From: a virus
DNA length: 24,021 bases
IMG/VR virus record: IMGVR_UViG_3300035698_010267
Location: 1 to 24,021 of that record
Direction: 5' to 3' (one strand)
A program made the translations under genes and the position numbers. Under the pieces are notes generated by a model. It saw only the letters and a list, made by a program, of their open reading frames with translations, was not told the origin of the DNA and did no database searches. This document shows, in pieces, positions 2-23,056 of the stretch (positions are counted from its first letter, which is position 1; every line of letters starts with the position of its first letter).

Positions 2-3000
2 GGGAGAGCCTTTATCAGGGATGTAGGGAGAGTATTCAATTACCCGTATTCAGATGTAGATAAAGCGGCGAAGTCTGTCGTCGTAAGAAAAATGGGAGAT
101 GACAGATCGGACTTTACCGTAGAGGATGCTTTTGAAACATTCGAAGATGGGAAAAACTTCAAGAAGAAATACCCGAAGGCGGCGAACATAGCGTCGAGGA
201 TAGAAGGTCAAGTACGAGGAGTCGGACAGCACGCCGCAGGGATATGTGTATCGGCAGAAAGTTTCAGAGAAGGAAAGCGATGCTCTCTCTGCATGAGGAA
301 AGGTGTCTCGGTAGCTGGCTGGGACAAACACGACGTAGAACATTTCGGATTGATGAAGCTTGACGTATTAGGTCTAAGCGCACTGAGCGTTTTATCAGAT
401 GCCAAGGAAGCGATCAAGAGAAACCACGGTGTCGATATTGTGTACGAAGAATTATCTCTGGACGACGAGAAAGTATTCAAGGAAATGTCCGGAGGTAATA
501 CAGTAGGAGCTTTTCAATTAAGTTCGTTCGGACTGAGAAAGTATTGTGCCGAACTTGGAATAGATAAGTTCGAAGATATAGTCGACGCCACGGCACTGTG
601 GAGACCCGGAACGCTTAGAAGTGGAATGACCGAAGAATTTAAGAAGAGGAAACACAAAGAGATAGAATGGAAGTACACTCATCCTGAAATGGAGAAGGTA
701 ACTGGGGACACGTTCGGCATCATTCTATATCAAGAACAGGTCATGAATATGGCTTACAGCCTAGCCGGTATGACATGGAAGAATTGCGACAACATAAGAA
801 AGGTTATCAGCAAGAGTCAGGGCGATGCTCTCTTCGCAAAGTATAAGGATATGTTCGTCGACGGATGCGAAGATCGAAAGACACTTGACCGGGAATCGGC
901 AGGAAAGATATGGGATGAACTGTCGTCGTTTGGCTGTCTCACTGGAGATACGATTATTTATAAGGTCTCCAGTAATCAATATTCGAAGAAAGAAATTAGA
1001 ATCGACGAGGCGTTTGAATACCAGACCAGTACGAATTTCAAAAGAAGAGGTCTAACGGTAATGTCGATGCATACCGATGGCTTTGTAAAATCTAACAAGA
1101 TACGAAGGATAATTGAAACGGGGACAAAGAAAGTCTATTACATTAGGACTTCGTCGAATAAAAATATAAGAGCGTCGGCCGAACATAGATTTTTGATAAA
1201 GGGAATATGGATGAAGGTAGGTGATATGGTTGTCGGCGACTGGATCCGAACGACCGATCTCAAACTCCCTCAGAAGCCCCATGGAAAGAGAACCGGCCAA
1301 GGCGCTCATGGAAAACCAAGCCCAAGACGGTCAAAGGGTAAAGGGGTCACGAACGAAAGGAAAAATAGAAAAGCGGAACTCATGCGAATACACTTTGGAA
1401 GATGTCAAGTGTGTCATATGGCGAATTCAAGAATGGAAATGCACCATAACGATGGGGACCAGGCGAATAATTCCGAAATCAATACTGTTTTGTTTTGCAG
1501 GCCGTGCCATAGGAAAGAACACAACCCTGAAATATATAAGAGATTCAGCCCGGGGTATTATACTCAGGATGAAGAAATCGTCGAGATAACCTTGATTGGA
1601 GAGAGAAAGACATATGATATCGAGATGGAAGAGGAGCCGAGGAATTTCATAGCGAACGGTTTTGTGTCGCATAATAGTTATGGATTCAATCGCTCACATT
1701 CAGTTGAGTATTCACTGATCACTTTCTGGGACATGTGGTTGAAGACTTATTACCCAGGCGAATTTCTAGCCGCTTCACTAACGCACGCTAACAATGATTT
1801 CAAAGATGAGCTAGTTAAGGAAGCAAGAAGACTTGAGCTGAAGATAGTCCCGCCAAAGATAGCGACTTCCGAACCATCCGACTGGGTGTGCAAAGGTAAG
1901 AATCTCATAATGCCATTGCTCGAGATTAAGGGTGTCGGACCAAAGGCATGTGACAAGATCAAGGAGCTTGGGAAGAAAAGAGATGGTAAAGGATTCTTCA
2001 AAGGCGAAGAGATAGACAAAGCACTTCCGTCGAACATAGTAAAATTACTTCGAAGGGTTAAAGCGTTTGACGAGAAGACTGAATTCGATGACGAGGAAGT
2101 TAAAGAGATAGCCGAACTTTTCGCATTCGATCTTTCGCAAGATCCTATGAGGGAAGTCAGAGGAATCAGGACGCTTCTCGATCCATATCTGTGCACCATA
2201 AAAGAAATAGCAAAAAGCAAGATCAATGATAAATCTTTGGCGATGGGAAGAATCGAACAGTTGAAGTATTCGTATCGCAAAAGTATTAAAGAATCTACAT
2301 CGAAGAAGAACAATGATTTCGGTGGAGTCTATGGATACTTAAGGGACGAGACTGGCATTCAGATGATAGCATTCTCCAGTGAACTTTACGGTAGGAAGAA
2401 AGATGAAATCGAACACTGCGATTCTCAATGGGTCGTGGCTGAAACGGTGAAGACAAAAACAGACATGCTTCAGTGCGATGAGTTATGGATAGAGGAAGAT
2501 CTGAAGACTGCGAATTTCGGAGATATGAATGTAGACGTTATTGAGCATGACGAGAATCCAGATATCAATAAGTTACTAGACGAGATCGAGCAATGTTCGG
2601 CATGTAGTTTATCGGACTCCTGCAATGGACCGGTTCCACCTAGCGTTGGAAAGATGAACATCATGATCGTAGGGGAGTCTCCGGGTGCAGAGGAAGATCG
2701 TTGCGGAAAAATGCTGGAAGGAAATCAGTTGAGACTCATGTGGAATATGCTATCCGAGGAGGGGATATCCAAGAAAGATTGCCACGTGACGACGGTAGCG
2801 AAATGCTTTCCGGGCATCAAGAAAAATCCAGGAGCAAAAGAAATAGCAACCTGTTCTAAGAAATGGCTCGACAAGGAAATAGAAATCATCGAGCCGGTAG
2901 TAATACTCGCTCTCGGTAACACCCCACTCCTGTGGATGAAGGGAAAGAAGTCTGGGATCATGGCTCTGAATGGAACGACCGAGTGGGATCCAGTAACGGA

Positions 3001-3454
3001 AGCTTGGATCTGCTGGTGCATACACCCCGCCTCGGCTCTCCACGTACCGGAGAACAGGCAGCTGCTTAAAATAGGCATAAGCAACCTAATTGGTACTTTG
3101 GACGCCGTAGGGGTCAACGTCGGAGTGTCTGGAAGGGTTCAGGACGATACCGAGGGAGAGAAAGAACGCAAACCTGGCGTCATGTCTAAATATAAGATAC
3201 TTGGGAAGGCTGAAAAGGGTAGTGCAGGGAAGCTGAAGCGCATAAGATTCGCAATGAAAACCAGATCATTGAATACCGGAGAGCCGGTCTCCGCTAACGA
3301 CGCTAGGAAGTGGGCCAAGAAGAACGACATCGAGCTTCCCGAAAAAACTTGGGGTGCAGTGTTCAATACAAAAGCATGGAAGATGGTCGGCCTAGAACCT
3401 AGCGACGAAGAGAGCCACCACAAGAATCGCGTATTTCGTTTCGTTCCGAAATGA
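2..3454 (+). CDS. dnaE: DNA polymerase III alpha (DnaE-type), 5'-partial, with intein and C-terminal family-4 uracil-DNA glycosylase fusion
   Basis: The frame is open from base 2 and matches DnaE just downstream of its PDFDxDF site (GRAFIRDVGRVF), so the true start and two catalytic Asp lie before the window. Residues here are counted from the Met at 92. DnaE hallmarks are GQVRGVGQHAAGI, the third catalytic Asp in KLDVLGL (D91, like E. coli D555), the PGTLRSGMTEEF region and YGFNRSHSVEY. An intein occupies 282-528. After it come a helix-hairpin-helix (IKGVGPKAC, about 612) and a probable OB fold (about 744). Residues about 828-1010 form a family-4-type UDG: GESPGAEED, a CSAC pair (C835, C838), the later Cys of AKCFPG and IATC as Fe-S ligands, and HPASAL. 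A tail of about 85 residues of unknown fold ends the protein. The protein should act in phage replication with built-in uracil removal (inference). The domain calls are firm; the exact ends are approximate. Confidence 0.93.
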   Translation, partial: GRAFIRDVGRVFNYPYSDVDKAAKSVVVRKMGDDRSDFTVEDAFETFEDGKNFKKKYPKAANIASRIEGQVRGVGQHAAGICVSAESFREGKRCSLCMRKGVSVAGWDKHDVEHFGLMKLDVLGLSALSVLSDAKEAIKRNHGVDIVYEELSLDDEKVFKEMSGGNTVGAFQLSSFGLRKYCAELGIDKFEDIVDATALWRPGTLRSGMTEEFKKRKHKEIEWKYTHPEMEKVTGDTFGIILYQEQVMNMAYSLAGMTWKNCDNIRKVISKSQGDALFAKYKDMFVDGCEDRKTLDRESAGKIWDELSSFGCLTGDTIIYKVSSNQYSKKEIRIDEAFEYQTSTNFKRRGLTVMSMHTDGFVKSNKIRRIIETGTKKVYYIRTSSNKNIRASAEHRFLIKGIWMKVGDMVVGDWIRTTDLKLPQKPHGKRTGQGAHGKPSPRRSKGKGVTNERKNRKAELMRIHFGRCQVCHMANSRMEMHHNDGDQANNSEINTVLFCRPCHRKEHNPEIYKRFSPGYYTQDEEIVEITLIGERKTYDIEMEEEPRNFIANGFVSHNSYGFNRSHSVEYSLITFWDMWLKTYYPGEFLAASLTHANNDFKDELVKEARRLELKIVPPKIATSEPSDWVCKGKNLIMPLLEIKGVGPKACDKIKELGKKRDGKGFFKGEEIDKALPSNIVKLLRRVKAFDEKTEFDDEEVKEIAELFAFDLSQDPMREVRGIRTLLDPYLCTIKEIAKSKINDKSLAMGRIEQLKYSYRKSIKESTSKKNNDFGGVYGYLRDETGIQMIAFSSELYGRKKDEIEHCDSQWVVAETVKTKTDMLQCDELWIEEDLKTANFGDMNVDVIEHDENPDINKLLDEIEQCSACSLSDSCNGPVPPSVGKMNIMIVGESPGAEEDRCGKMLEGNQLRLMWNMLSEEGISKKDCHVTTVAKCFPGIKKNPGAKEIATCSKKWLDKEIEIIEPVVILALGNTPLLWMKGKKSGIMALNGTTEWDPVTEAWICWCIHPASALHVPENRQLLKIGISNLIGTLDAVGVNVGVSGRVQDDTEGEKERKPGVMSKYKILGKAEKGSAGKLKRIRFAMKTRSLNTGEPVSANDARKWAKKNDIELPEKTWGAVFNTKAWKMVGLEPSDEESHHKNRVFRFVPK
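935..1675 (+). mobile_element. Intein with internal HNH endonuclease, inserted in the DnaE catalytic region
   Basis: This in-frame 247-residue insertion splits the conserved DnaE stretch FG/SYGFNRSHS. It starts with Cys1 (CLTGDTII, block A), has a block-B-like segment (IRASAEHRFLI), and ends with a block F/G region (KTYDIEMEEEPRNFIANGF then VSHN). The +1 extein residue is Ser, so canonical class 1 splicing (Cys1, terminal His-Asn, Ser+1) is expected. Between blocks lies an HNH nuclease: CQVC, MEMHHNDGD and FCRPCHRKEH (about residues 430-480 counted from the Met at 92). HNH inteins are less common than LAGLIDADG ones. The site is two residues N-terminal to that of the cyanobacterial split DnaE inteins. 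Splicing should restore an uninterrupted polymerase. Confidence 0.92.
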
Positions 3455-3463
3455 CCCCAAGAT

Positions 3464-3497
3464 ACTATAATCAATTAGAGGGAATAGAGATTGTGAA
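3464..3497 (+). promoter_or_regulatory. Promoter/leader-like repeated element, copy 1
   Basis: The 20 nt at 3464-3483 (TATAAT, then CAATTAGAGGGA) recur exactly at 17143-17162. Similarity continues for about 14 nt through the start codon with only a few substitutions. The element offers a consensus -10 hexamer (3466-3471) and a Shine-Dalgarno-like AGAGGGA (3477-3483) placed 9 nt before the GTG at 3493. No good -35 box is visible, so a promoter is only one reading. It could equally be a conserved translation-initiation leader. Confidence 0.5.
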
Positions 3498-4023
3498 CAT
3501 TACGAAAAACTGGGCCGGGATTATTCCATTGGCATGCGAGACCTGCGATAATGCACTCGCAGATTTTTTCAACGATGGAAAGACTAAAGATGGGCCATGG
3601 GCCATTATGTGTGATGACTGCCTTCCGATATACGGAGTTGGACTTGGTGTAGGTAGAGGGCGGAAGTTTAATGCGTTAGGCGAGGGAGTAACAGTGAGCG
3701 ATAAACCAGACGAAAGAATACACCTGAAGGCAGAAGACAGAGAAGCGATTACAGAGAAAGTCGGAGAGGGTTTTTGGGAGGTTCTCGAATTGGCCATGAA
3801 GATCCGAATCAATCGGAGAGAGCAGTACGGAGATACGTATCAAGATGACGAGTTGACATTCCTTTATTATCAGATCAGAAATAAGTTGAAACGGTTTCGG
3901 TCTCAACTTCAGATCGACGGACTAACAGAGAAGATAAAAGACGAAGAGGTGGCGATAGATTCATTGGTGGATCTTATATGCTACTCGGCTTTCGCTATCG
4001 AGAATATCAAAGGGAAAAAATAG
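3493..4023 (+). CDS. Zinc-ribbon plus Nmad1/DUF1599-like nucleotide-modification-associated protein
   Basis: The 176-residue protein has two parts. The N-terminal half has CETC and CDDC pairs, likely a zinc ribbon, followed by a glycine-rich GVGLGVGRGRKF segment. The C-terminal half (REQYGDTYQ, YYQIRNKLKRF, DSLVDLICYSAFAIENI) resembles the all-alpha DUF1599 family, named nucleotide modification associated domain 1. That family was linked by comparative genomics to phage base-modification loci. I chose the GTG at 3493 because it follows a Shine-Dalgarno sequence inside the repeated leader. An in-frame ATG at 3451 overlaps the dnaE stop but has no ribosome site. It opens a cassette with a flavoprotein and two thymidylate-synthase-like genes. 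The family match is by motif recall only, and the catalytic role is unknown. Confidence 0.68.
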   Translation: MNITKNWAGIIPLACETCDNALADFFNDGKTKDGPWAIMCDDCLPIYGVGLGVGRGRKFNALGEGVTVSDKPDERIHLKAEDREAITEKVGEGFWEVLELAMKIRINRREQYGDTYQDDELTFLYYQIRNKLKRFRSQLQIDGLTEKIKDEEVAIDSLVDLICYSAFAIENIKGKK

Positions 4024-4024
4024 A

Positions 4025-5293
4025 ATGGACAGGCGAAAGAAATATATCGTTGGAGGAGGTCTATCTGGATTGATTTACGCTCACTATAATCCAGACTTCC
4101 AGATCATATCCCCGGACGTAGGTGGAAGATTTTTGTCGAACGAATCAGCCCTTTCGAATATCATCTTTGCTCACGTCAATGAACAGACAAAAAATATGCT
4201 GGATGAACTCAAGATTGAATACGTAAAATCTACTCGGCACATCTCCTATGTTAAGGAAGGAGAACTCTGCGATGAAATTTCCGAAGACGATAAGATCGCA
4301 GTCATCAGGAAGAAGGTTGACATCCCGGACTTCCAACCAAAGGATCTCAACCTGAGTACTGACGATTATTATATCGAGACGTACGAATTTTCTTTTCAGG
4401 AATTGATCAGGGAACTCTCGCAGGGGAAACGGATTATCAAAGAGAAGGTTATCAGGATCACAGAAGGCACTATCGTGACGAACTCAACGAGCTACGATTA
4501 CGATTCGCTTGTCTCGACGATACCTGCAGATATCTTCTGGAAATTGTACAAGGGAGGAACCGACGTCGAACTAGAGAGCGAAGCTACAACTTTCGCACTG
4601 GTCGATAAGGTTCCGGACGAGTTGAACGGAGTCGCATTCAATATGGCATACTTCGTCGACTTCAATATTCCTTACGTTCGCATATCTAAAAAAGATCAAT
4701 TGAGCGATGGTCCATATCTCTACGAGTTCCCGGGTCACTTTTCATGCGACACTTGGAAATCGAAACTGCCAGAGGGTTCAAAGGTGGATAGAGCTTGGGT
4801 CGATGAAAGAAGTATTGTGATTACCAACAAGAATAATGTACCACCGAAGAACGTTCTATTCGTAGGAAGGTTCGCAGCATGGGATCACTCTGTTAAGATT
4901 GGCGACGTAATACAGCAGACGAGGTTTGACTGCGACTTCAGGATGATATGGAATAGGCAGATGAAGTTTTCGGGAAAGTTCTATGACTTCAATAGATTGA
5001 GCGAGCAGGGATACAAGGAAGATATAACAAAAAATCTCATGCTCCTTATATACCCTGAAATTTCAGAGATACTCGACGAATTGAATTACAAGGTGCACAG
5101 AAGTGAAAAGGTCGTCAGTGTCGACAGGATTAAGATGGAGATCGTGGATGTATTCAAATACGTACTGAACCTGATGATCGTTTGGGGTATTGCGCCAGAG
5201 GAGTTATTCGAACTGTTCAACAAAAAATCGACAATCGTAGAGCAGCGATATGAAAAAATGATGATGGAACGACAAGCTGATGGGGGCAAATAA
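4025..5293 (+). CDS. FAD-dependent oxidoreductase, UDP-galactopyranose mutase/protoporphyrinogen oxidase-like
   Basis: The 422-residue protein opens with a dinucleotide-binding Rossmann motif (YIVGGGLSGLIYA). Near residues 270-300 it has the segment NVLFVGRFAAWDHSVKIGDV, typical of the second FAD-binding region of UDP-galactopyranose mutase-like flavoproteins. The middle (YDYDSLVSTIPADIFW) matches the domain switch-back of that superfamily. It starts 1 nt after the preceding stop, behind an AAAGGGA site, and ends overlapping the ThyX-like gene by TAATG. This implies coupled expression. Its true substrate is unknown. Next to two thymidylate-synthase homologues it may act on a nucleotide or on a sugar attached to DNA, but that is inference from position. 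Confidence 0.72.
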   Translation: MDRRKKYIVGGGLSGLIYAHYNPDFQIISPDVGGRFLSNESALSNIIFAHVNEQTKNMLDELKIEYVKSTRHISYVKEGELCDEISEDDKIAVIRKKVDIPDFQPKDLNLSTDDYYIETYEFSFQELIRELSQGKRIIKEKVIRITEGTIVTNSTSYDYDSLVSTIPADIFWKLYKGGTDVELESEATTFALVDKVPDELNGVAFNMAYFVDFNIPYVRISKKDQLSDGPYLYEFPGHFSCDTWKSKLPEGSKVDRAWVDERSIVITNKNNVPPKNVLFVGRFAAWDHSVKIGDVIQQTRFDCDFRMIWNRQMKFSGKFYDFNRLSEQGYKEDITKNLMLLIYPEISEILDELNYKVHRSEKVVSVDRIKMEIVDVFKYVLNLMIVWGIAPEELFELFNKKSTIVEQRYEKMMMERQADGGK

Positions 5294-6171
5294 TGAACAT
5301 AGAAGATATCAAGAAAAGATTCGGGATCAAGAGGGGTGAAAAACCAAAGACGAAATTCATAGACAATCTGGATGCTGTCGGAGTTGAGATGATCGACTGG
5401 CCAGATCCTGATCGTTTGAAAAAGGTGCTCGTCAATATGTCCCAGGCATCTTGGTTCAAAGATTTTTGTCGCGAGGCGAATCATGAGGGAGTCGAAGAGG
5501 CGACGCATGATCTTCTATCTGGAAAAGTTCTTGGTCAAGGAATGGAACATGCAAAGTTTTGTTTTGTAGTCAGTGGTCTCAGCTTGCATGGAACGCATGC
5601 ACTTGTCAGGAATAGAATCAGCGTATGTTACATGCAACAATCCCAAGCAGTGAAAGACTTTCGACACAGCGACGTATTAGTTCCTAGAGCATACACAAAA
5701 CACCCCGACTTACTCAAACGATACGAGCAGTGGGTTCTGGATGGGAAGCAACTTTATTCTCACCTGCTCGATACCGGAGACATTGCCAATACAGATGCTA
5801 GGTTCAGTCTGCCGAAGACGATACCGAGTTGGTGCTATGTCAGCTGTTCTCTTCCTACGCTCCTCGCAATTTATGGAAAGAGATCGGACTCGCAGGAGGA
5901 ACACCCGGAGATGAATAAGATGGTAGAGCTGATGCGAGTTCTTGTTGTCAACAAATTTCCTTACATGAAAAAGTATTTTGTATCACATGACGATAATGGA
6001 AAGTGCCTGCATCTTCAACCTGGATACTCTGCTAATTGTATATTTGCGAGAGATGGAAAACATTCTATCGGGGGTATGGCCAAAGCCGTTTATGACGAAT
6101 GGACTCTGCACGATAAGACGAAAGAAGAATTGATGCTAAACGCGGAACCTTACAAGACGAAGGAAGTGTAA
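5293..6171 (+). CDS. Divergent ThyX-like (flavin-dependent thymidylate synthase family) protein
   Basis: The 292-residue protein resembles ThyX in its core: GLSLHGTHALVRNRISVCYM then QQS corresponds to the signature RHRx7S. DARFSLPKTIPSW, SLPTLLAIYGKRS and EMNKMVELMRV correspond to the later substrate-binding helices. ThyX methylates dUMP using methylene-tetrahydrofolate, FAD and NADPH. Here the signature His is Asn, the spacing to the Ser is one residue longer, and the usual Asn-x-Arg is absent (SLP). The enzyme may therefore have altered chemistry or substrate, such as a different one-carbon transfer to a pyrimidine. It is encoded directly between a flavoprotein and a ThyA-like gene. Family membership is likely; ordinary dTMP synthesis is uncertain. 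Confidence 0.72.
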   Translation: MNIEDIKKRFGIKRGEKPKTKFIDNLDAVGVEMIDWPDPDRLKKVLVNMSQASWFKDFCREANHEGVEEATHDLLSGKVLGQGMEHAKFCFVVSGLSLHGTHALVRNRISVCYMQQSQAVKDFRHSDVLVPRAYTKHPDLLKRYEQWVLDGKQLYSHLLDTGDIANTDARFSLPKTIPSWCYVSCSLPTLLAIYGKRSDSQEEHPEMNKMVELMRVLVVNKFPYMKKYFVSHDDNGKCLHLQPGYSANCIFARDGKHSIGGMAKAVYDEWTLHDKTKEELMLNAEPYKTKEV

Positions 6172-6172
6172 C

Positions 6173-6658
6173 ATGGCTTACGAGATTATTGATCAGTGCT
6201 ACGATCGTATTCGTAATGACATCGACAAATTTGGAAAGGAAAATATCGTCGACGGAAAGAAAGTAATCGAGTGCCTTGATACTCTTTATAGCTTCGATGA
6301 ATTTGTATCGTATGATGCTATCGGTCAAGAAGAGCGCGACTACGTGGCGGGGAAACTGAAAGACAATCGACTCGGACTGGAGAGGGTTAAGGGGATACTG
6401 AGAAAAGATATAAATTCACGAAGAGCAGTAATGATTTTTTCTCAAGAATTGTCAAAGCCGAATTGCACAGTGTCGGTTCAATTTCAGATCAGAAACGAAA
6501 GGGTGCGACTCTCTGTGTTTCAAAGATCTCAAGACATAAAAATGTTTAAGAAAGATTGCGAGACATACAATCGTCTTGCACGTAGCGTATGCAATGAATT
6601 TTCAATAGACGGATATGACGTTAGTGTAATGGTCGGAAACATGCACCTGCATGTATGA
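6173..6658 (+). CDS. Short ThyA-like (thymidylate synthase / hydroxymethylase superfamily) protein
   Basis: The protein has 161 residues against about 264 for bacterial ThyA. The second half fits the ThyA core: RRAVMIF, KPNCTVSVQFQIRN (position of the catalytic Cys in APCH), LSVFQRSQD (the RSxD phosphate/substrate motif) and VGNMHLHV (position of THLY). The GLPFN loop with its substrate-binding Asn is replaced by MFKKDC, so pyrimidine recognition should differ. The N-terminal folate-side region is reduced to about 80 residues. Start ATG follows GAAGGA. The gene directly follows the ThyX-like gene. It could be a modified-pyrimidine synthase or a non-catalytic partner; degeneration is less likely because the frame is intact. 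Confidence 0.68.
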   Translation: MAYEIIDQCYDRIRNDIDKFGKENIVDGKKVIECLDTLYSFDEFVSYDAIGQEERDYVAGKLKDNRLGLERVKGILRKDINSRRAVMIFSQELSKPNCTVSVQFQIRNERVRLSVFQRSQDIKMFKKDCETYNRLARSVCNEFSIDGYDVSVMVGNMHLHV

Positions 6659-6669
6659 AAGGGAGTATG

Positions 6670-6876
6670 ATGAAAGTCAATTCGGTAAGATGGATAACAT
6701 GCGGGGAGACGTTGATTGGTTTCGTTTCAGGTGTAGATGATATAACAGGAGAAAAGAAAATATATGCCGGGTTAGGATTAGGTATTTCAGAGGGAGATGA
6801 TATCAATCGTATTCTCAAAATAGGTGGGAAGGTAAACGCGAAAGAGATGGCAGAATTTTTCGCCGACGCAATCTAA
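6670..6876 (+). CDS. Small hypothetical protein
   Basis: This is an unrecognised 68-residue protein. Three in-frame ATGs lie at 6655, 6667 and 6670. The AAAGGGAG at 6658-6665 best fits the last one, although 6655 would overlap the preceding stop. The sequence (RWITCGETLIGFVSGVDD, GLGISEGDDINRIL) suggests a small beta-rich fold with a helical end. No membrane segment or metal site is visible. It sits between the nucleotide cassette and the recombination genes. Confidence 0.7.
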   Translation: MKVNSVRWITCGETLIGFVSGVDDITGEKKIYAGLGLGISEGDDINRILKIGGKVNAKEMAEFFADAI

Positions 6877-7407: not shown

Positions 7408-7562
7408 GTATCGAGATCCTAACAAGAGGTGTGATAATACTTCTTGCCCTTTGGGGAATATGGATCATATTCAGATTAGCGGGTCGTGCGTTTGCACGAA
7501 GCTGGAAAGAAGAGATGGAAACGAAAAAGGAGAAAGAAGATGGTAGCGAAGAGCAAGGTTAA
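7404..7562 (+). CDS. Small single-pass membrane protein
   Basis: This 52-residue ORF starts with an ATGA overlap on the previous stop and ends inside the next gene. Residues about 9-25 (GVIILLALWGIWIIF) form one hydrophobic helix, followed by a positively charged turn (RLAGRAFARSWK) and a charged tail. The expected topology is N-terminus out, cytoplasmic tail in. Its placement inside the recombination operon could tether or merely accompany replication proteins. No known family was recognised. Confidence 0.65.
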   Translation: MSIEILTRGVIILLALWGIWIIFRLAGRAFARSWKEEMETKKEKEDGSEEQG

Positions 7563-8712
7563 CAAGAAGCATCAAGCACTACGTCGCAAGGCGGAGCGAG
7601 GTGGAAGGTCGTTCGGTGGAGGAAACTATATCGCAGTTCCAGAGGACATGGAATTTTTCAGTCCAAAGGACAACACGTACAGCATCGAGATACTTCCGTA
7701 TATCATAACGGACGAGAAACATCCTGACGATGTAGATACCGGAGAGACTTGGTACACTCGGCCGTTCATGCTTCATAGGAATGTCGGAGTCAACAACGAG
7801 AGGGTCGTATGTCCTCGTAGCGTCGGTATGCCTTGTCCTATATGCGAAGAGGCAGAAAGGATTAATAAAGATCCTGAGTCAGGTAAGGACGCAACCAAGG
7901 GACTATGGCCATCGAATCGTTCTATCTACAACGTCGTTGACGTATCGGAAGACGAGCCGGTTGTTAAGTTGTTCGACTGTTCCACGTTTCTGTTTGGCGA
8001 ACTCTTGGAGAAGAGAGTCGCGCAGGATCTTGAAGAAAGAGGAGATTTCTTCGAGGCCGAAAACGGATGTACATTGATATGTGCATTTGACGAAGACAAG
8101 AGGGGCGGATTCACTTCGTTTCCTTGCGTCAGTATTGACTTCAAATCGAGGGAAGATTACGACGACGAGATCTTCGATCAGGTAGCACCTCTCGATGAAA
8201 TATTGATCGTTCCTTCCTACGAAGAGATCGAGGCAAAGTTCCAAGGCATCAGTGAAGAAGATGTAGGGACAGGCGAAGAGGAGAAGGAAGAGAAGAAATC
8301 AAAGCGCACAACCCGTCGCAAGAAGAAAGATGACGAAGGCGGTGAAGATGGCAAGGCCGACGACGATAAGAAAGATGACGGAGAGAAGAAGGAAGATGAA
8401 GAAGGATCAAAACCAGGACGAAGGGGAAGAAGGCGTCGACAGGAACCTAAAGAAGACGAGAACAAAGACGACGATAAGAAAGAAGACGGAGAAAAGTCAG
8501 GAGAAGATAACGGAGGCGTAACAGAAGAGGACGTGCCTGATGGTTATGAACTCTGTCATGCCTGTGAAGGAGCAGGGGTGAATACTAAGGGACGGGAATG
8601 CCGCATCTGTAAGGGAGACGGCTATATCAAGAGTGACGACGATGGTGGCGAAGAGGAAGAGAAGAAACCAGCGGCCGGTCGCAGGAGAAGGACGAAGAAG
8701 GGAAACGACTAG
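7540..8712 (+). CDS. gp32-like single-stranded DNA-binding protein with acidic linker and DnaJ-type zinc repeats
   Basis: Start ATG 7540 lies 7 nt after AAGGAG; an upstream in-frame GTG at 7486 has no such site. The 390-residue product begins with a basic segment. It then has an OB-type core with H79 and a C91/C99/C102 set (CPRSVGMPCPIC), the zinc site typical of phage gp32-like ssDNA-binding proteins. Residues about 250-330 are a low-complexity acidic/basic linker rich in Asp, Glu, Lys and Arg. Acidic tails of such proteins recruit replication partners. Unusually, residues 339-362 hold two CxxCxGxG repeats (CHACEGAG, CRICKGDG), like the DnaJ cysteine-rich domain, followed by another charged tail. 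The gene overlaps the small membrane ORF and lies directly upstream of the RecA-like gene. Confidence 0.85.
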   Translation: MVAKSKVNKKHQALRRKAERGGRSFGGGNYIAVPEDMEFFSPKDNTYSIEILPYIITDEKHPDDVDTGETWYTRPFMLHRNVGVNNERVVCPRSVGMPCPICEEAERINKDPESGKDATKGLWPSNRSIYNVVDVSEDEPVVKLFDCSTFLFGELLEKRVAQDLEERGDFFEAENGCTLICAFDEDKRGGFTSFPCVSIDFKSREDYDDEIFDQVAPLDEILIVPSYEEIEAKFQGISEEDVGTGEEEKEEKKSKRTTRRKKKDDEGGEDGKADDDKKDDGEKKEDEEGSKPGRRGRRRRQEPKEDENKDDDKKEDGEKSGEDNGGVTEEDVPDGYELCHACEGAGVNTKGRECRICKGDGYIKSDDDGGEEEEKKPAAGRRRRTKKGND

Positions 8713-12947: not shown

Positions 12948-13282
12948 AAAAATTTATATTTTTTGGGATTATGATTATCGTTTCGTTTTGCTGCGTTGCG
13001 TTCTATTTGCAAGATCCTCTTACAACATATAAACTTAAAACGAAACGGTCAATAAGATATTACAAGATGACCATCGAAGAGTTGGCAATTGATTTACACA
13101 AAAGGCATAACAGTATTCATATCTATTCGACTTCGACCGGCGAATATACAGTACTGACAAGCAGTGGAATGACATGGGGGAAAACTAACACGTTGGAAGG
13201 TGCTCGTAAAATCGTTGACGAATATTACCTTAAGTGGGCAAAGACTTTAAAACCAACACTACCTGAAGGGTTTATAGAATGA
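12944..13282 (+). CDS. Hypothetical protein with N-terminal signal/membrane segment
   Basis: The 112-residue protein has KK at the N-terminus and then FIFFGIMIIVSFCCVAFYL, a clear transmembrane or signal-peptide core. A Cys pair at its end could suggest lipidation, but no LxxC box is convincing. The remaining soluble part is a small alpha/beta domain (MTIEELAIDLHKRHN, GEYTVLTSSG, LEGARKIVDEYYLKW). It overlaps both neighbours by ATGA. Confidence 0.7.
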   Translation: MKKFIFFGIMIIVSFCCVAFYLQDPLTTYKLKTKRSIRYYKMTIEELAIDLHKRHNSIHIYSTSTGEYTVLTSSGMTWGKTNTLEGARKIVDEYYLKWAKTLKPTLPEGFIE

Positions 13283-13782
13283 CTTTCATAGGAATAGACA
13301 ACGGAGTCTCTGGCAGCATCGGTATAATATCAACCGACGAGGAAGAGGATACATACTTCGTCAAGACACCAGTTCTGGAACCGCAACAAAATTATACCAA
13401 AAAGAAAGGTAACGTCACTCGCATAAATTACAGTAGATTGAGATCGTTTTTGAAGAACTTTCCAGGTGCGCATGTGATGATGGAAAGGCCGCTTGTAAAT
13501 CCAGCTTTATTTAAGGCGACGACGAGTGCGCTAAGAGCAATGGAAGCGACACTGATTGCTGTAGAGAGTTTGAAACTATCGAAGGTGTGGGTAGATTCTA
13601 AAGAATGGCAAAAGAAACTTCTTCCTTCTGGGATCAAAGGATCTACGGAACTGAAGAAAGCAAGTCTCGACATAGGCATTCGAATGTTCCCTCAGCACGA
13701 AGCGATGATAAGGAAACAAAAAGATGCTGACGGAATTCTTATGGCACATTATTACCTTCTAAAATATACTGGACATCAATGA
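13279..13782 (+). CDS. ruvC: RuvC-like Holliday junction resolvase
   Basis: The 167-residue protein has the RuvC RNase H-fold acidic set: FIGIDNGVSGSIG (D7), HVMMERPLV (E69), and KDADGILMAHYYLL (D149 and D151). WVDSKEWQKKLLP and KKASLDIGIRMFP match the helices of phage RuvC-like resolvases, which cut four-way junctions during recombination and before packaging. Length is close to bacterial RuvC. It starts by ATGA overlap behind GAAGG and overlaps the HNH gene by ATGA. Confidence 0.87.
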   Translation: MTFIGIDNGVSGSIGIISTDEEEDTYFVKTPVLEPQQNYTKKKGNVTRINYSRLRSFLKNFPGAHVMMERPLVNPALFKATTSALRAMEATLIAVESLKLSKVWVDSKEWQKKLLPSGIKGSTELKKASLDIGIRMFPQHEAMIRKQKDADGILMAHYYLLKYTGHQ

Positions 13783-14573
13783 ATAACAAAGAGAATATGT
13801 CTGGCAAGACTAGGGTAGCTCCCGAAAGGATGGTCACGATCACCATCCTGTCTTGTCTCGTCTTGATCGTAACAGCTGAGATCGGAGTTGCTATGAGAAT
13901 CAAATCCAAGAATCTACCACGACCAAAATGTGCTTGCGGATGTGGTGAATATGTTAATCGGAGTAAGGTCAAATCAGTTTGGAATACATATGTTAATCGT
14001 CATAGTCAACGAGGCGCGACCATGACAGAAGAGCATAAATCAAAACTTCGGAAAGTCTGGATAGGTAGAAAGCACACAGAAGAGTCAAAAAAGAAGATGT
14101 CCAATAGTGCGATCGGAAGGAAACTCAGCGAAGAACATAAAGAGAAAATTTCAAAAAGTCTTCAAGGGCATCATGGATACTGGAAAGGTAAGAAACATTC
14201 TGAAGAATACAAATTGAAAATGTCTCTTAGTCATCGTGGGGAAAAAGGATCTGGATGGAAAGGTGGGATTTCGATTCTTCCATATTCGAAAGAATGGACC
14301 CGTCGGCTGAAGGATGAAATCAGAGAACGAGATGATCGTAAATGTTGTAATCCAGAATGTCAAGGTGGATCTAATTTACTCGACGTTCATCATATCAATT
14401 ACGATAAAGAAAATTGTGATCCTTCCAATTTAATATGTCTTTGTAGAAGTTGTCATACGCAATCAACCGCTGGCGATAGAGAATATTGGAAGAATTATTA
14501 TCAAAAAATTATGAAAGAAAGAAACCTATTGCTGCGGCGTGTATGTGGAAGGAGAAGAGATGATCAACTATAA
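13779..14573 (+). CDS. NUMOD3/HNH homing-type endonuclease with a fused membrane-segment N-terminus
   Basis: The 264-residue protein is a free-standing homing endonuclease from about residue 45. It has CACGCGEYVN, then NUMOD3 repeats (MTEEHKSKL, GRKHTEESKKKMS, GRKLSEEHKEKIS, GKKHSEEYKLKMS) for DNA binding. The HNH domain has Cys 189/190 and 194, VHHINYD (H204, H205), and CLCRSCH (C220, C222, C225, H226). Residues 1-40 do not belong to this family and hold a membrane-like stretch (TITILSCLVLIVTAEIGVAM). The start at 13779 keeps the ATGA overlap with ruvC, but an ATG at 13893 behind CGGAG could start the nuclease alone. Two sequence lines inside it count to about 32-33 percent GC, below neighbouring genes, as expected for a mobile element. 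Confidence 0.88.
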   Translation: MNNKENMSGKTRVAPERMVTITILSCLVLIVTAEIGVAMRIKSKNLPRPKCACGCGEYVNRSKVKSVWNTYVNRHSQRGATMTEEHKSKLRKVWIGRKHTEESKKKMSNSAIGRKLSEEHKEKISKSLQGHHGYWKGKKHSEEYKLKMSLSHRGEKGSGWKGGISILPYSKEWTRRLKDEIRERDDRKCCNPECQGGSNLLDVHHINYDKENCDPSNLICLCRSCHTQSTAGDREYWKNYYQKIMKERNLLLRRVCGRRRDDQL

Positions 14574-21339: not shown

Positions 21340-21566
21340 GACTACAAGATCGAAAGAATCTGGTAACTGCAATAGGCGAGTACATACGAACTGAAGGCTG
21401 TGGTGGTGTTATCACTGGCCATCAGGAAGTGGAAGGCGTGTTGGCTAAAATACTTGATGTGCCGAGGTTCACTGATGGGCATGGGTGGAACTGGTGGATA
21501 TACAAGGCTCAGGCAGAAGGGCCAACTGCGGATGCGCTGCTAAAGTCTATGGGTGAATGTAGATGA
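21336..21566 (+). CDS. Small hypothetical protein
   Basis: The 76-residue protein starts at ATG 21336 in an ATGA overlap, behind GGAGGCAGGGG. It has an amphipathic first helix (RKNLVTAIGEYIRTEGC) and an aromatic patch (HGWNWWIYKAQAEG). Its stop overlaps the radical SAM start by 4 nt. Function is unknown. Confidence 0.65.
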   Translation: MRLQDRKNLVTAIGEYIRTEGCGGVITGHQEVEGVLAKILDVPRFTDGHGWNWWIYKAQAEGPTADALLKSMGECR

Positions 21567-23056
21567 AGGTATTGCTGGTATACGCCAATAGCATGATGGA
21601 TAATCTCATTCCGCTTGGGGTGTCTTATCTGTCAGCGGCACTCAAGTTGGTCGGACACGAAGTGAGTCTTTTCGATACAACCTTCTACCGGACTCGCGCT
21701 GAGACTGGTGATGAGGTCAGGGAAAGAAATCTTCAGGTCAAGCCAACCCGCCTCAAGGATGCAGGAATCATCGAGAAGACAGATTCCGAGAAGGATTTAA
21801 GGGAGCTGCTCCGGAAAGACCCGCCCGACCTTGTTGCGTGTTCGGTCATAGAGATAACGTACAAACTAGGACTTCGCCTTCTGGGTGTAGCTCACGGTAT
21901 GGGGTTCCGTACTCTGATGGGCGGCGTCCATGTAATGCTTTGTCCTGACGAGGTGATATCGGAACCAGCAGTGGATATGATTTGCGTCGGCGAGGGTGAA
22001 GAGGTAATAGTTGAGCTATGTTCATCCCTGGAGTCTGGGGATGATGGCATCGGGGTTCCGAACATCTGGTTGAAACAAGGTGATGTAATCCGGTGTGGTC
22101 CAGTCAGGTGCCTGACCGATCTCAACGATGTCCCCTTTCAGGACTGGTCTATTTATGATCCGAAGCGTTTCTTCAAGCCGATGGGTGGGAAGATATTTAG
22201 GATGGGTCCGATTGAGTTCAATCGTGGTTGCCCGTACAACTGTCATTTCTGTGGAGCGGCCGCATTGAATGAGTTGGCAAAGAAGTCCGGGGCTGGCCGT
22301 TCATGGTACAGGCAGAGATCTGTTGCGGTGGTTCTTGAGGAAATGCGCAGTAAGCTGGAGACATACGAACTTGATTACTGGTATTTTGTTGCCGAAAGTT
22401 TTCTGACAATGTCTGGACGGCGATTTGATGAATTTGAGGCTGGATACCGGGACATAAAAATCCCCTTCTGGATAGAGACAAGGCCAGAATCTATCGATGC
22501 CGATAAGGTCAGGCGGATTGAACAGCTTGGGTGCGAAGGCATAAGTATCGGCGTGGAACATGGTGATGATGATTTCAGGCGCGAGTACTTGAACCGTCAA
22601 GTGGACAATGACTTAATTATCAATGCGTTTGACACAATAAGAAACAACAGCGACATAAGGGTCAGCGCAAACGTCATCATCGGCTTTCCGGAAGAAACCA
22701 GAAAGCACACATTTGCGACGATAGAACTTTGTAGAAGGCTCAACTGCAAACCCGTGGTGAATATTTTCAATCCTTATCGTGGCACTTATCTCTATAATTA
22801 TTGTATCGAGAAGGGCTACATTGACGCTGGGGCGATGACGGGTGACTATCGTGGAGATGTTGCTTTGCGGCATCCGTTCTTCTCAGAGGATGATATCAAG
22901 GGACTACAGCGAACGTTCCTGATGTATACAAGTTTCCCGAAGGCGCGTTGGCCGGAGATCGAAGTGGCCGAGAAGTTCAGCGAGAAGGGGAACGAAAAGT
23001 TTGCCGAGTTACGGGAAGAGTATTTGTCACAAGGCGAGGGGAAGGTGGGGATATGA
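21563..23056 (+). CDS. B12-binding-domain radical SAM enzyme
   Basis: The 497-residue protein has an N-terminal cobalamin-binding-type Rossmann domain (about 1-155: VLLVYANSMMDNLIPLGVSY, MGGVHVMLCPDE, CVGEGEEVIVEL). A radical SAM barrel follows, with CxxxCxxC as GCPYNCHFC (C223, C227, C230) and GCEGISIGVEHGDD and SANVIIGFPEET strands. Such enzymes perform methylations or rearrangements on unactivated carbons; the substrate here is unknown. Two sampled 60-nt lines count to 53-55 percent GC, against 48 percent for one line in the RecA gene, suggesting recent acquisition. It may be an auxiliary metabolic or host-modifying gene, or act on nucleotides. ATGA overlap joins it to the operon. Confidence 0.87.
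   Translation: MKVLLVYANSMMDNLIPLGVSYLSAALKLVGHEVSLFDTTFYRTRAETGDEVRERNLQVKPTRLKDAGIIEKTDSEKDLRELLRKDPPDLVACSVIEITYKLGLRLLGVAHGMGFRTLMGGVHVMLCPDEVISEPAVDMICVGEGEEVIVELCSSLESGDDGIGVPNIWLKQGDVIRCGPVRCLTDLNDVPFQDWSIYDPKRFFKPMGGKIFRMGPIEFNRGCPYNCHFCGAAALNELAKKSGAGRSWYRQRSVAVVLEEMRSKLETYELDYWYFVAESFLTMSGRRFDEFEAGYRDIKIPFWIETRPESIDADKVRRIEQLGCEGISIGVEHGDDDFRREYLNRQVDNDLIINAFDTIRNNSDIRVSANVIIGFPEETRKHTFATIELCRRLNCKPVVNIFNPYRGTYLYNYCIEKGYIDAGAMTGDYRGDVALRHPFFSEDDIKGLQRTFLMYTSFPKARWPEIEVAEKFSEKGNEKFAELREEYLSQGEGKVGI

Follow-up and report, generated by a model that had tools for sequence, protein, structure and literature searches.

A divergent ThyX and a short ThyA-like protein form a recurrent phage gene module that may act on cytosine nucleotides

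The DNA analysed here (the window) is a 24,021-base virus record from IMG/VR, IMGVR_UViG_3300035698_010267, in which a gene for a DnaE-type DNA polymerase III alpha subunit is followed by a series of genes in the same direction. Four of these genes, at 3451-4023, 4025-5293, 5293-6171 and 6173-6658 on the plus strand, make up the cassette that is the subject of this report, and they encode, in this order, an Nmad1-like protein, a flavoprotein, a divergent ThyX and a short ThyA-like protein (mini-ThyA). From the polymerase gene onward the junctions are a 4-nucleotide (nt) overlap, a 1-nt gap, a 1-nt overlap, a 1-nt gap and a 4-nt overlap. The initial annotation had seen in these open reading frames (ORFs) one co-directional unit with two unrelated thymidylate synthase (TS) families side by side, and both points were confirmed. 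It had the first gene begin at 3493, which is an internal GTG; the ORF opens at the ATG at 3451. The promoter-like element said to be repeated in front of the genes had to be given up, since four sigma-70-like matches were obtained against 7.1 expected in shuffled sequences and the repeats were only short and two-copy. The cassette is a recurrent phage module overlooked by database annotation, and its core is the divergent ThyX followed by mini-ThyA.

The ThyX protein (5293-6171, 292 amino acids, aa) scored 71.5 bits with the Pfam Thy1 profile (PF02511, E 1.1e-19), whose cut-off is 24.8, and it is not of the canonical type. Its motif region, RNRISVCYMQQSQAV (5608-5652), departs from the canonical RHRxxSxxxxSxRY with the catalytic S88, R90 and Y91: H79 is replaced by Asn, R90 by Ala and Y91 by Val, and S88 is kept. 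Residues are given in T. maritima numbering, carried over through an ungapped M. tuberculosis alignment in a mapping made in the present analysis. In the ThyX enzymes studied so far, Ser88 and Tyr91 are strictly conserved and critical, and Arg90, beside Tyr91, is also conserved (PMC8316439, PMC11940539). The altered signature residues noticed earlier in this protein were thus real, and the alignment of 41 divergent ThyX sequences (from 40 distinct contigs, since one locus duplicates a stretch already represented) revealed that R90 (to Gly or Ala) and Y91 (to Asp, Glu or Val) were lost in all 41. S88 had become Cys in 36 of them and remained Ser in five, the window among the latter, while R78, R80, R147 and, where covered, R174 were retained in every sequence. 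Since R90 and Y91 are gone, the acid pair on which ThyX normally relies cannot work in the divergent clade as it does elsewhere. When 68 ThyX sequences were placed in a tree, the divergent ones (33 of 33) fell into one clade with a local support of 0.993. Fold, family and the four arginines are shared with canonical ThyX, whereas the replaced residues, an extra C-terminal region and the mini-ThyA alongside set the divergent proteins apart, as does the second thymidylate synthase that some of their phages carry.

Mini-ThyA (6173-6658, 161 aa) has the TS fold, its N-terminal half is reduced in length, and its folate-site residues were not confidently assignable. It matched phrog_160 (thymidylate synthase) at E 1.6e-9, scored slightly under the cut-off of Pfam Thymidylat_synt (PF00303; 21.4 against 24.3 bits), and its AlphaFold model, with a predicted local distance difference test score (pLDDT) of 85.7, matched TS-fold enzymes at Z 13-15. 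Six residues were invariant across 17 distinct mini-ThyAs, whether free-standing or fused. These are, with their E. coli TS equivalents, Arg83 (6419-6421; R126' of the phosphate site), Cys98 (6464-6466; the nucleophile C146), Arg118-Ser119 (6524-6529; R166-S167, also of the phosphate site), Asp128 (6554-6556; position N177) and His158 (6644-6646; H207 of the substrate 3'-OH site). The claim of an altered signature residue in this short ThyA-like gene was borne out, as the Asn177 of deoxyuridine monophosphate (dUMP) specificity is replaced by Asp, a residue of the deoxycytidine monophosphate (dCMP) type, in 17 of 17; the window has a one-residue gap near Asp128, and gap-free members place the Asp exactly (FPWD, FITD, FPHD). 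Enzymes that act on dUMP carry Asn at position 177. Asp in its place changes the substrate of TS from dUMP to dCMP, and in metagenomes it is a mark of modified contigs (PMC8670742); in the T4 enzyme, Asp179 is the dCMP determinant (PMC6400193). A TS fold, Asp at 177/179 and a Cys nucleophile, as in T4 gp42-type enzymes, are all found in mini-ThyA. When the PDB was searched with the mini-ThyA family profile, T4 dCMP hydroxymethylase was the best match (E 2.1e-7); with the window protein the first thymidylate synthase was the L. casei N229D/dCMP mutant 1njc, at a weak E of 0.78. Because the Asp is invariant and the T4 hydroxymethylase is the best profile match, dCMP is the expected substrate.

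The flavoprotein gene (4025-5293) encodes 422 aa, in which an FAD/NAD-type flavoprotein is fused to a dUTPase_2-like all-alpha NTP-PPase domain that was absent from the earlier reading of the window. The description of the protein as UGM-like draws support from a GGGLSG dinucleotide motif; the phrog_4828 match is weak (E 0.0053), the structure model is of low confidence (pLDDT 45), and the flavin part gave no match among PDB sequences. The NTP-PPase domain (aa 333-407; 5021-5245) matched Pfam dUTPase_2 (PF08761) at E 0.0011, its 19.7 bits lying under the cut-off of 22.9. Such a match was obtained with all four members of the flavoprotein family (best E 4.8e-6), the metal-site pattern ExxE...ExxD (EISE ... 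EIVD in the window) is intact, with E345, E348, E372 and D375 invariant in the four, and the domain family profile matched YpjD in the PDB (E 0.0058). Flavin reduction for the ThyX-like enzyme, or oxidation of the product, can be offered as guesses at the job of the flavoprotein. The 190-aa protein encoded upstream (3451-4023) consists of an N-terminal stretch with two CxxC pairs (phrog_29767-like, E 2.4e-9) and a C-terminal DUF1599/Nmad1-like helical domain. The resemblance to Nmad1 reported before was seen again, and a 105-aa counterpart lies at the equivalent position in locus L046 (6456-6773), but the match to DUF1599/Nmad1 (PF07659) is sub-threshold (Pfam E 0.07; 13.9 bits against a cut-off of 25). 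The protein is probably a nucleotide-pool enzyme.

Single-protein scans of IMG/VR with the window ThyX, flavoprotein or mini-ThyA returned no matches, and a profile of ThyX relatives was needed; 38 loci were obtained with it, partly overlapping the 30 of an earlier scan. By tblastn against phage records, a ThyX 25% identical to that of the window was found in Geobacillus phage GR1, overlapped by a 151-aa 'hypothetical' protein which carries the ThyA landmarks and whose family profile connects to the window mini-ThyA. Altogether, the divergent ThyX is present in 40 distinct contigs, one of them the cultured phage GR1, though the number of independent cases is lower because some contigs are near-identical phages. 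In 19 of the 40, GR1 included, ThyX is followed immediately by a mini-ThyA, mostly overlapping or a few nt apart; the 19 comprise 15 counted under a 10-nt overlap limit, together with L017, L018 and L019, which exceed that limit, and L064, which has an upstream alternative start. No mini-ThyA was found near any of 21 control ThyX loci (L023-L043). The closest ThyX homologues are those of L046-L048 (72%) and L049 (66%), and in all four the flavoprotein/NTP-PPase gene lies immediately upstream of ThyX or one small ORF away. The flavoprotein family occurs in the window and in L046-L050, with full-length homologues, 39-54% identical, upstream of ThyX in L046, L049 and L050. The same four-gene order, for which a search had been proposed, was found in L046, where a DUF1599-sized gene, the flavoprotein/NTP-PPase gene, ThyX and mini-ThyA follow one another. 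L049 is syntenic with the window outside the cassette as well (polymerase-UDG gene upstream, UvsY-like and SSB-like genes downstream), and L050 has the order flavoprotein/NTP-PPase, ThyX, TMPK-like gene, mini-ThyA, UDG-family gene. In L014, L051, L053, L054, L056, L057, L061 and L062, the divergent ThyX often has HD-domain (YfbR-like), NDT-like, TMPK-like and MazG-like genes as companions; together these recall the nucleotide-pool genes of other base-replacement phages.

Some similar loci were rejected. The actinophage ThyX-like proteins of Dryad and Onyinye keep the Ser and Arg (HQQSQR/HQQSMR); they branch outside the divergent clade, and the gene next to theirs is not a TS. In the cultured Xanthomonas phage Carpasina (L093, 2318-5185) and Luteibacter phage Pluto (L094, 1834-4989), a phrog_4828 flavoprotein stands immediately upstream of a ThyX with an RTR...ETSRA motif; this ThyX lies outside the divergent clade, and the gene after it, tried as a mini-ThyA, encodes a HAD/PNK-MazG-like protein.

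Fusions of mini-ThyA to other domains were also observed. In L046-L049 it is joined to an HhH-GPD domain, which Pfam recognised in L049 (4.3e-7) and which in L046 matched MBD4 in the PDB (E 7.5e-10). As MBD4 excises bases arising from deaminated 5-substituted cytosine, such a fusion agrees with modified cytosine. Three further contigs of the 40, G007, G017 and G021, have mini-ThyA joined to a TMPK-like domain at a site away from ThyX, with a sugar-nucleotide epimerase-like gene adjoining, and in GR1 a glycosyltransferase gene lies near the ThyX/mini-ThyA pair; the epimerase-like genes and this glycosyltransferase are consistent with later glycosylation.

Taking these comparisons together, we consider it on balance probable that the cassette belongs to a nucleotide-stage phage pathway in which one-carbon chemistry leads to C5-substituted dCMP for viral DNA; the substituent may be methyl, hydroxymethyl or hydroxy. 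In such a pathway the NTP-PPase domain, perhaps with the Nmad1-like protein, would convert dCTP (and dUTP) to dCMP and dUMP and so deplete normal dCTP. Mini-ThyA would then hold dCMP through R126', R166, S167, H207 and Asp177, and its C146 would attack C6 covalently and activate C5. The divergent ThyX, as the flavin and one-carbon partner, would complete the reaction to 5-methyl- or 5-hydroxymethyl-dCMP. The product might be phosphorylated by a TMPK-like kinase, which in relatives is fused to or stands beside mini-ThyA, and deaminated or unmodified bases might be removed by the MBD4-like glycosylase, fused in the closest relatives, and by uracil-DNA glycosylase (UDG). That the two proteins act as one two-component enzyme, mini-ThyA holding and activating dCMP by its Cys while the ThyX-like partner performs the flavin and one-carbon chemistry, and that the resulting C5-modified dCMP replaces cytosine, is a more doubtful proposal, which we put forward tentatively. 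What was observed directly is the gene content, its recurrence, the conserved residues, the fusions and the presence of other thymidylate synthases in some of these phages; from these observations we infer the substrate, the physical partnership, the product and its incorporation into DNA. The non-standard pyrimidine pathway of the initial annotation is strongly supported by comparison, through the recurrent gene order, the kinase and glycosylase fusions, the loss of ThyX residues, the invariant Asp and the second synthases. The flavoprotein has gained an NTP-PPase domain, the promoter argument falls away, and the expected substrate has moved from dUMP and thymine to dCMP and cytosine.

Several points weigh against this pathway. 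The scheme leaves the flavoprotein without an explained role. The window, which is a 24-kb fragment, has no TMPK-like gene adjoining the cassette and no HhH-GPD domain. Furthermore, 18 of the 40 contigs with a divergent ThyX, many of them fragments, showed no mini-ThyA, so that on present data ThyX and mini-ThyA are not obligate partners.

The structural comparison of mini-ThyA brings in a different chemistry, flavin-dependent 5-hydroxylation of dCMP. Mini-ThyA would then be a shortened relative of AfhB or 5-hydroxy-dCMP synthase, a TS-superfamily enzyme found in phages (PMC13390438), with reduced flavin supplied by the ThyX-like protein or the flavoprotein and glycosylation following later. 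The top match of the model was indeed 9iqu, 'phage HY126 dCMP hydroxylase-AfhB' (Z 15.0), and 9iqc, 'Monooxygenase dependent on riboflavin with dCMP and FAD', was reached at Z 14.5 and also by the profile (E 1.8e-5), with the same Asp aligned. Flavoprotein genes adjoin the pair in the window and in L046-L050, as does a gene for a nitroreductase family protein in GR1. Like mini-ThyA, these enzymes combine a TS fold, Asp at the specificity position and phage origin with flavin chemistry in the system. However, MilA (14.9) and ordinary TS (about 14; human TS 14.2) lie within one Z unit of AfhB, and such scores are ties. Neither the Foldseek nor the VIA ranking separates hydroxymethylase, hydroxylase and TS; by sequence profile the T4 hydroxymethylase is the better match. 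In addition, AfhB has a full-size TS fold and no ThyX partner known here, and the evidence at hand gives enzymes of its type no need for one. We therefore regard 5-hydroxylation as rather unlikely.

The retained Thy1 homology could be taken more simply, with the divergent ThyX still a thymidylate synthase supplying ordinary dTMP and mini-ThyA a degenerate or regulatory leftover. This homology is clear, dUTPase-like, HD and NDT-like neighbours also suit dTMP metabolism, and no second thymidylate synthase was detected in 23 of 31 records. Most of these records are fragments, so that this failure means little, and a separate synthase was found in the other eight, which bear the module: G001-G003, G007 and G009 have a second ThyX that keeps S88 and R90, G016 has a more divergent one with ESQRYV, and G019 and G024 have a full-length ThyA with Asn177. 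These amount to about six independent cases, because G001-G003 look like one phage kind, and in such records the ThyX/mini-ThyA pair is not needed for dTMP. Every divergent ThyX lacks R90 and Y91, the Asp at the specificity position is invariant, and the keeping of all six substrate and catalytic residues in very diverse mini-ThyAs is not decay. Plain dTMP supply is accordingly quite unlikely. Uracil-based hypermodification, by way of 5-hydroxymethyl-dUMP or similar, could claim that ThyX classically uses dUMP and R174 is retained, that MBD4-like glycosylases also take thymine and 5-hydroxymethyluracil mispairs and that TMPK-like kinases would suit 5-substituted dUMP, but the Asp at the N177 position of all mini-ThyAs indicates cytosine and makes this very improbable.

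The pathway to C5-substituted dCMP can be compared with known systems. For hydroxymethylcytosine, phage T4 uses the dCTPase gp56, the dCMP hydroxymethylase gp42 and the dNMP kinase gp1. Counterparts of genes 56, 42 and 1 can be recognised in the module, which has an NTP-PPase, a TS-fold enzyme whose base-specificity residue is Asp, and a dNMP kinase. Unlike gp42 (246 aa), however, mini-ThyA has about 150-160 aa and is paired with ThyX, the NTP-PPase is fused to a flavoprotein, and the kinase is of the TMPK-like type and in three phages joined to mini-ThyA. Iyer and co-workers reportedly described, in 2013, nucleotide-modification neighbourhoods with Nmad and flavoprotein genes; a DUF1599/Nmad1-like domain and oxidoreductases beside TS-like genes are common to these and the module. 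MilA and MilB of mildiomycin synthesis (CMP hydroxymethylase and N-glycosidase) offer a likeness in the TS-fold cytosine-type enzyme and in the NDT-like genes that accompany many module loci, but they act on a ribonucleotide in an antibiotic pathway without ThyX. In the literature searched, no description of a ThyX/mini-ThyA pair with kinase and MBD4-like fusions was found, and a word search of one paper on GR1 gave no mention of restriction, methylation or thymidylate.

Outside the cassette, the upstream gene (92-3454, plus strand) encodes a fragment of DnaE-type polymerase III alpha (DNA_pol3_finger, E 1.7e-43). It contains an intein with an HNH-type endonuclease region (935-1675, aa 282-528; Intein_splicing, E 2.3e-13), the site being intein-free in L012 and L049, and a UDG domain fused to its C-terminal part (2654-3055; E 2.9e-20), which is also present in G004 (L049). 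The nearest polymerase relative, L012 (68% over the best segment), stops short of the cassette. Downstream, a 73-aa ORF with no assigned function (6655-6876, plus strand) overlaps the mini-ThyA stop. A gene that is SSB-like in position (7486-8712) encodes a protein whose C-terminal region is long and charged and which contains CxxC pairs; it has no PHROG match, and a similar gene is present in L049. An HNH homing-endonuclease-like gene (13779-14573) lies downstream of a Holliday-junction-resolvase-like gene, and an ORF at 21563-23056 resembles a B12-binding radical SAM enzyme, with a similar gene in L013. In L049 a radical SAM/SPASM gene stands immediately upstream of the flavoprotein gene. 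At 13186-14548, apart from its cassette, L046 carries a second nucleotide set, made up of another DUF1599-like gene, one NDT-like gene and a ThyX keeping S88 and R90.

ThyA and ThyX are a standard example of enzymes that are unrelated and yet stand in for each other. If our reading is true, a conserved phage module with altered forms of both together would be unexpected, and modified cytosine would reach DNA by a new route, widespread in uncultured phages. Nucleotide chemistry would also gain a new pair of enzymes, and phages with restriction-resistant DNA could be traced in metagenomes by this marker. The presence of the module in the cultured thermophilic phage GR1 makes these predictions directly testable.

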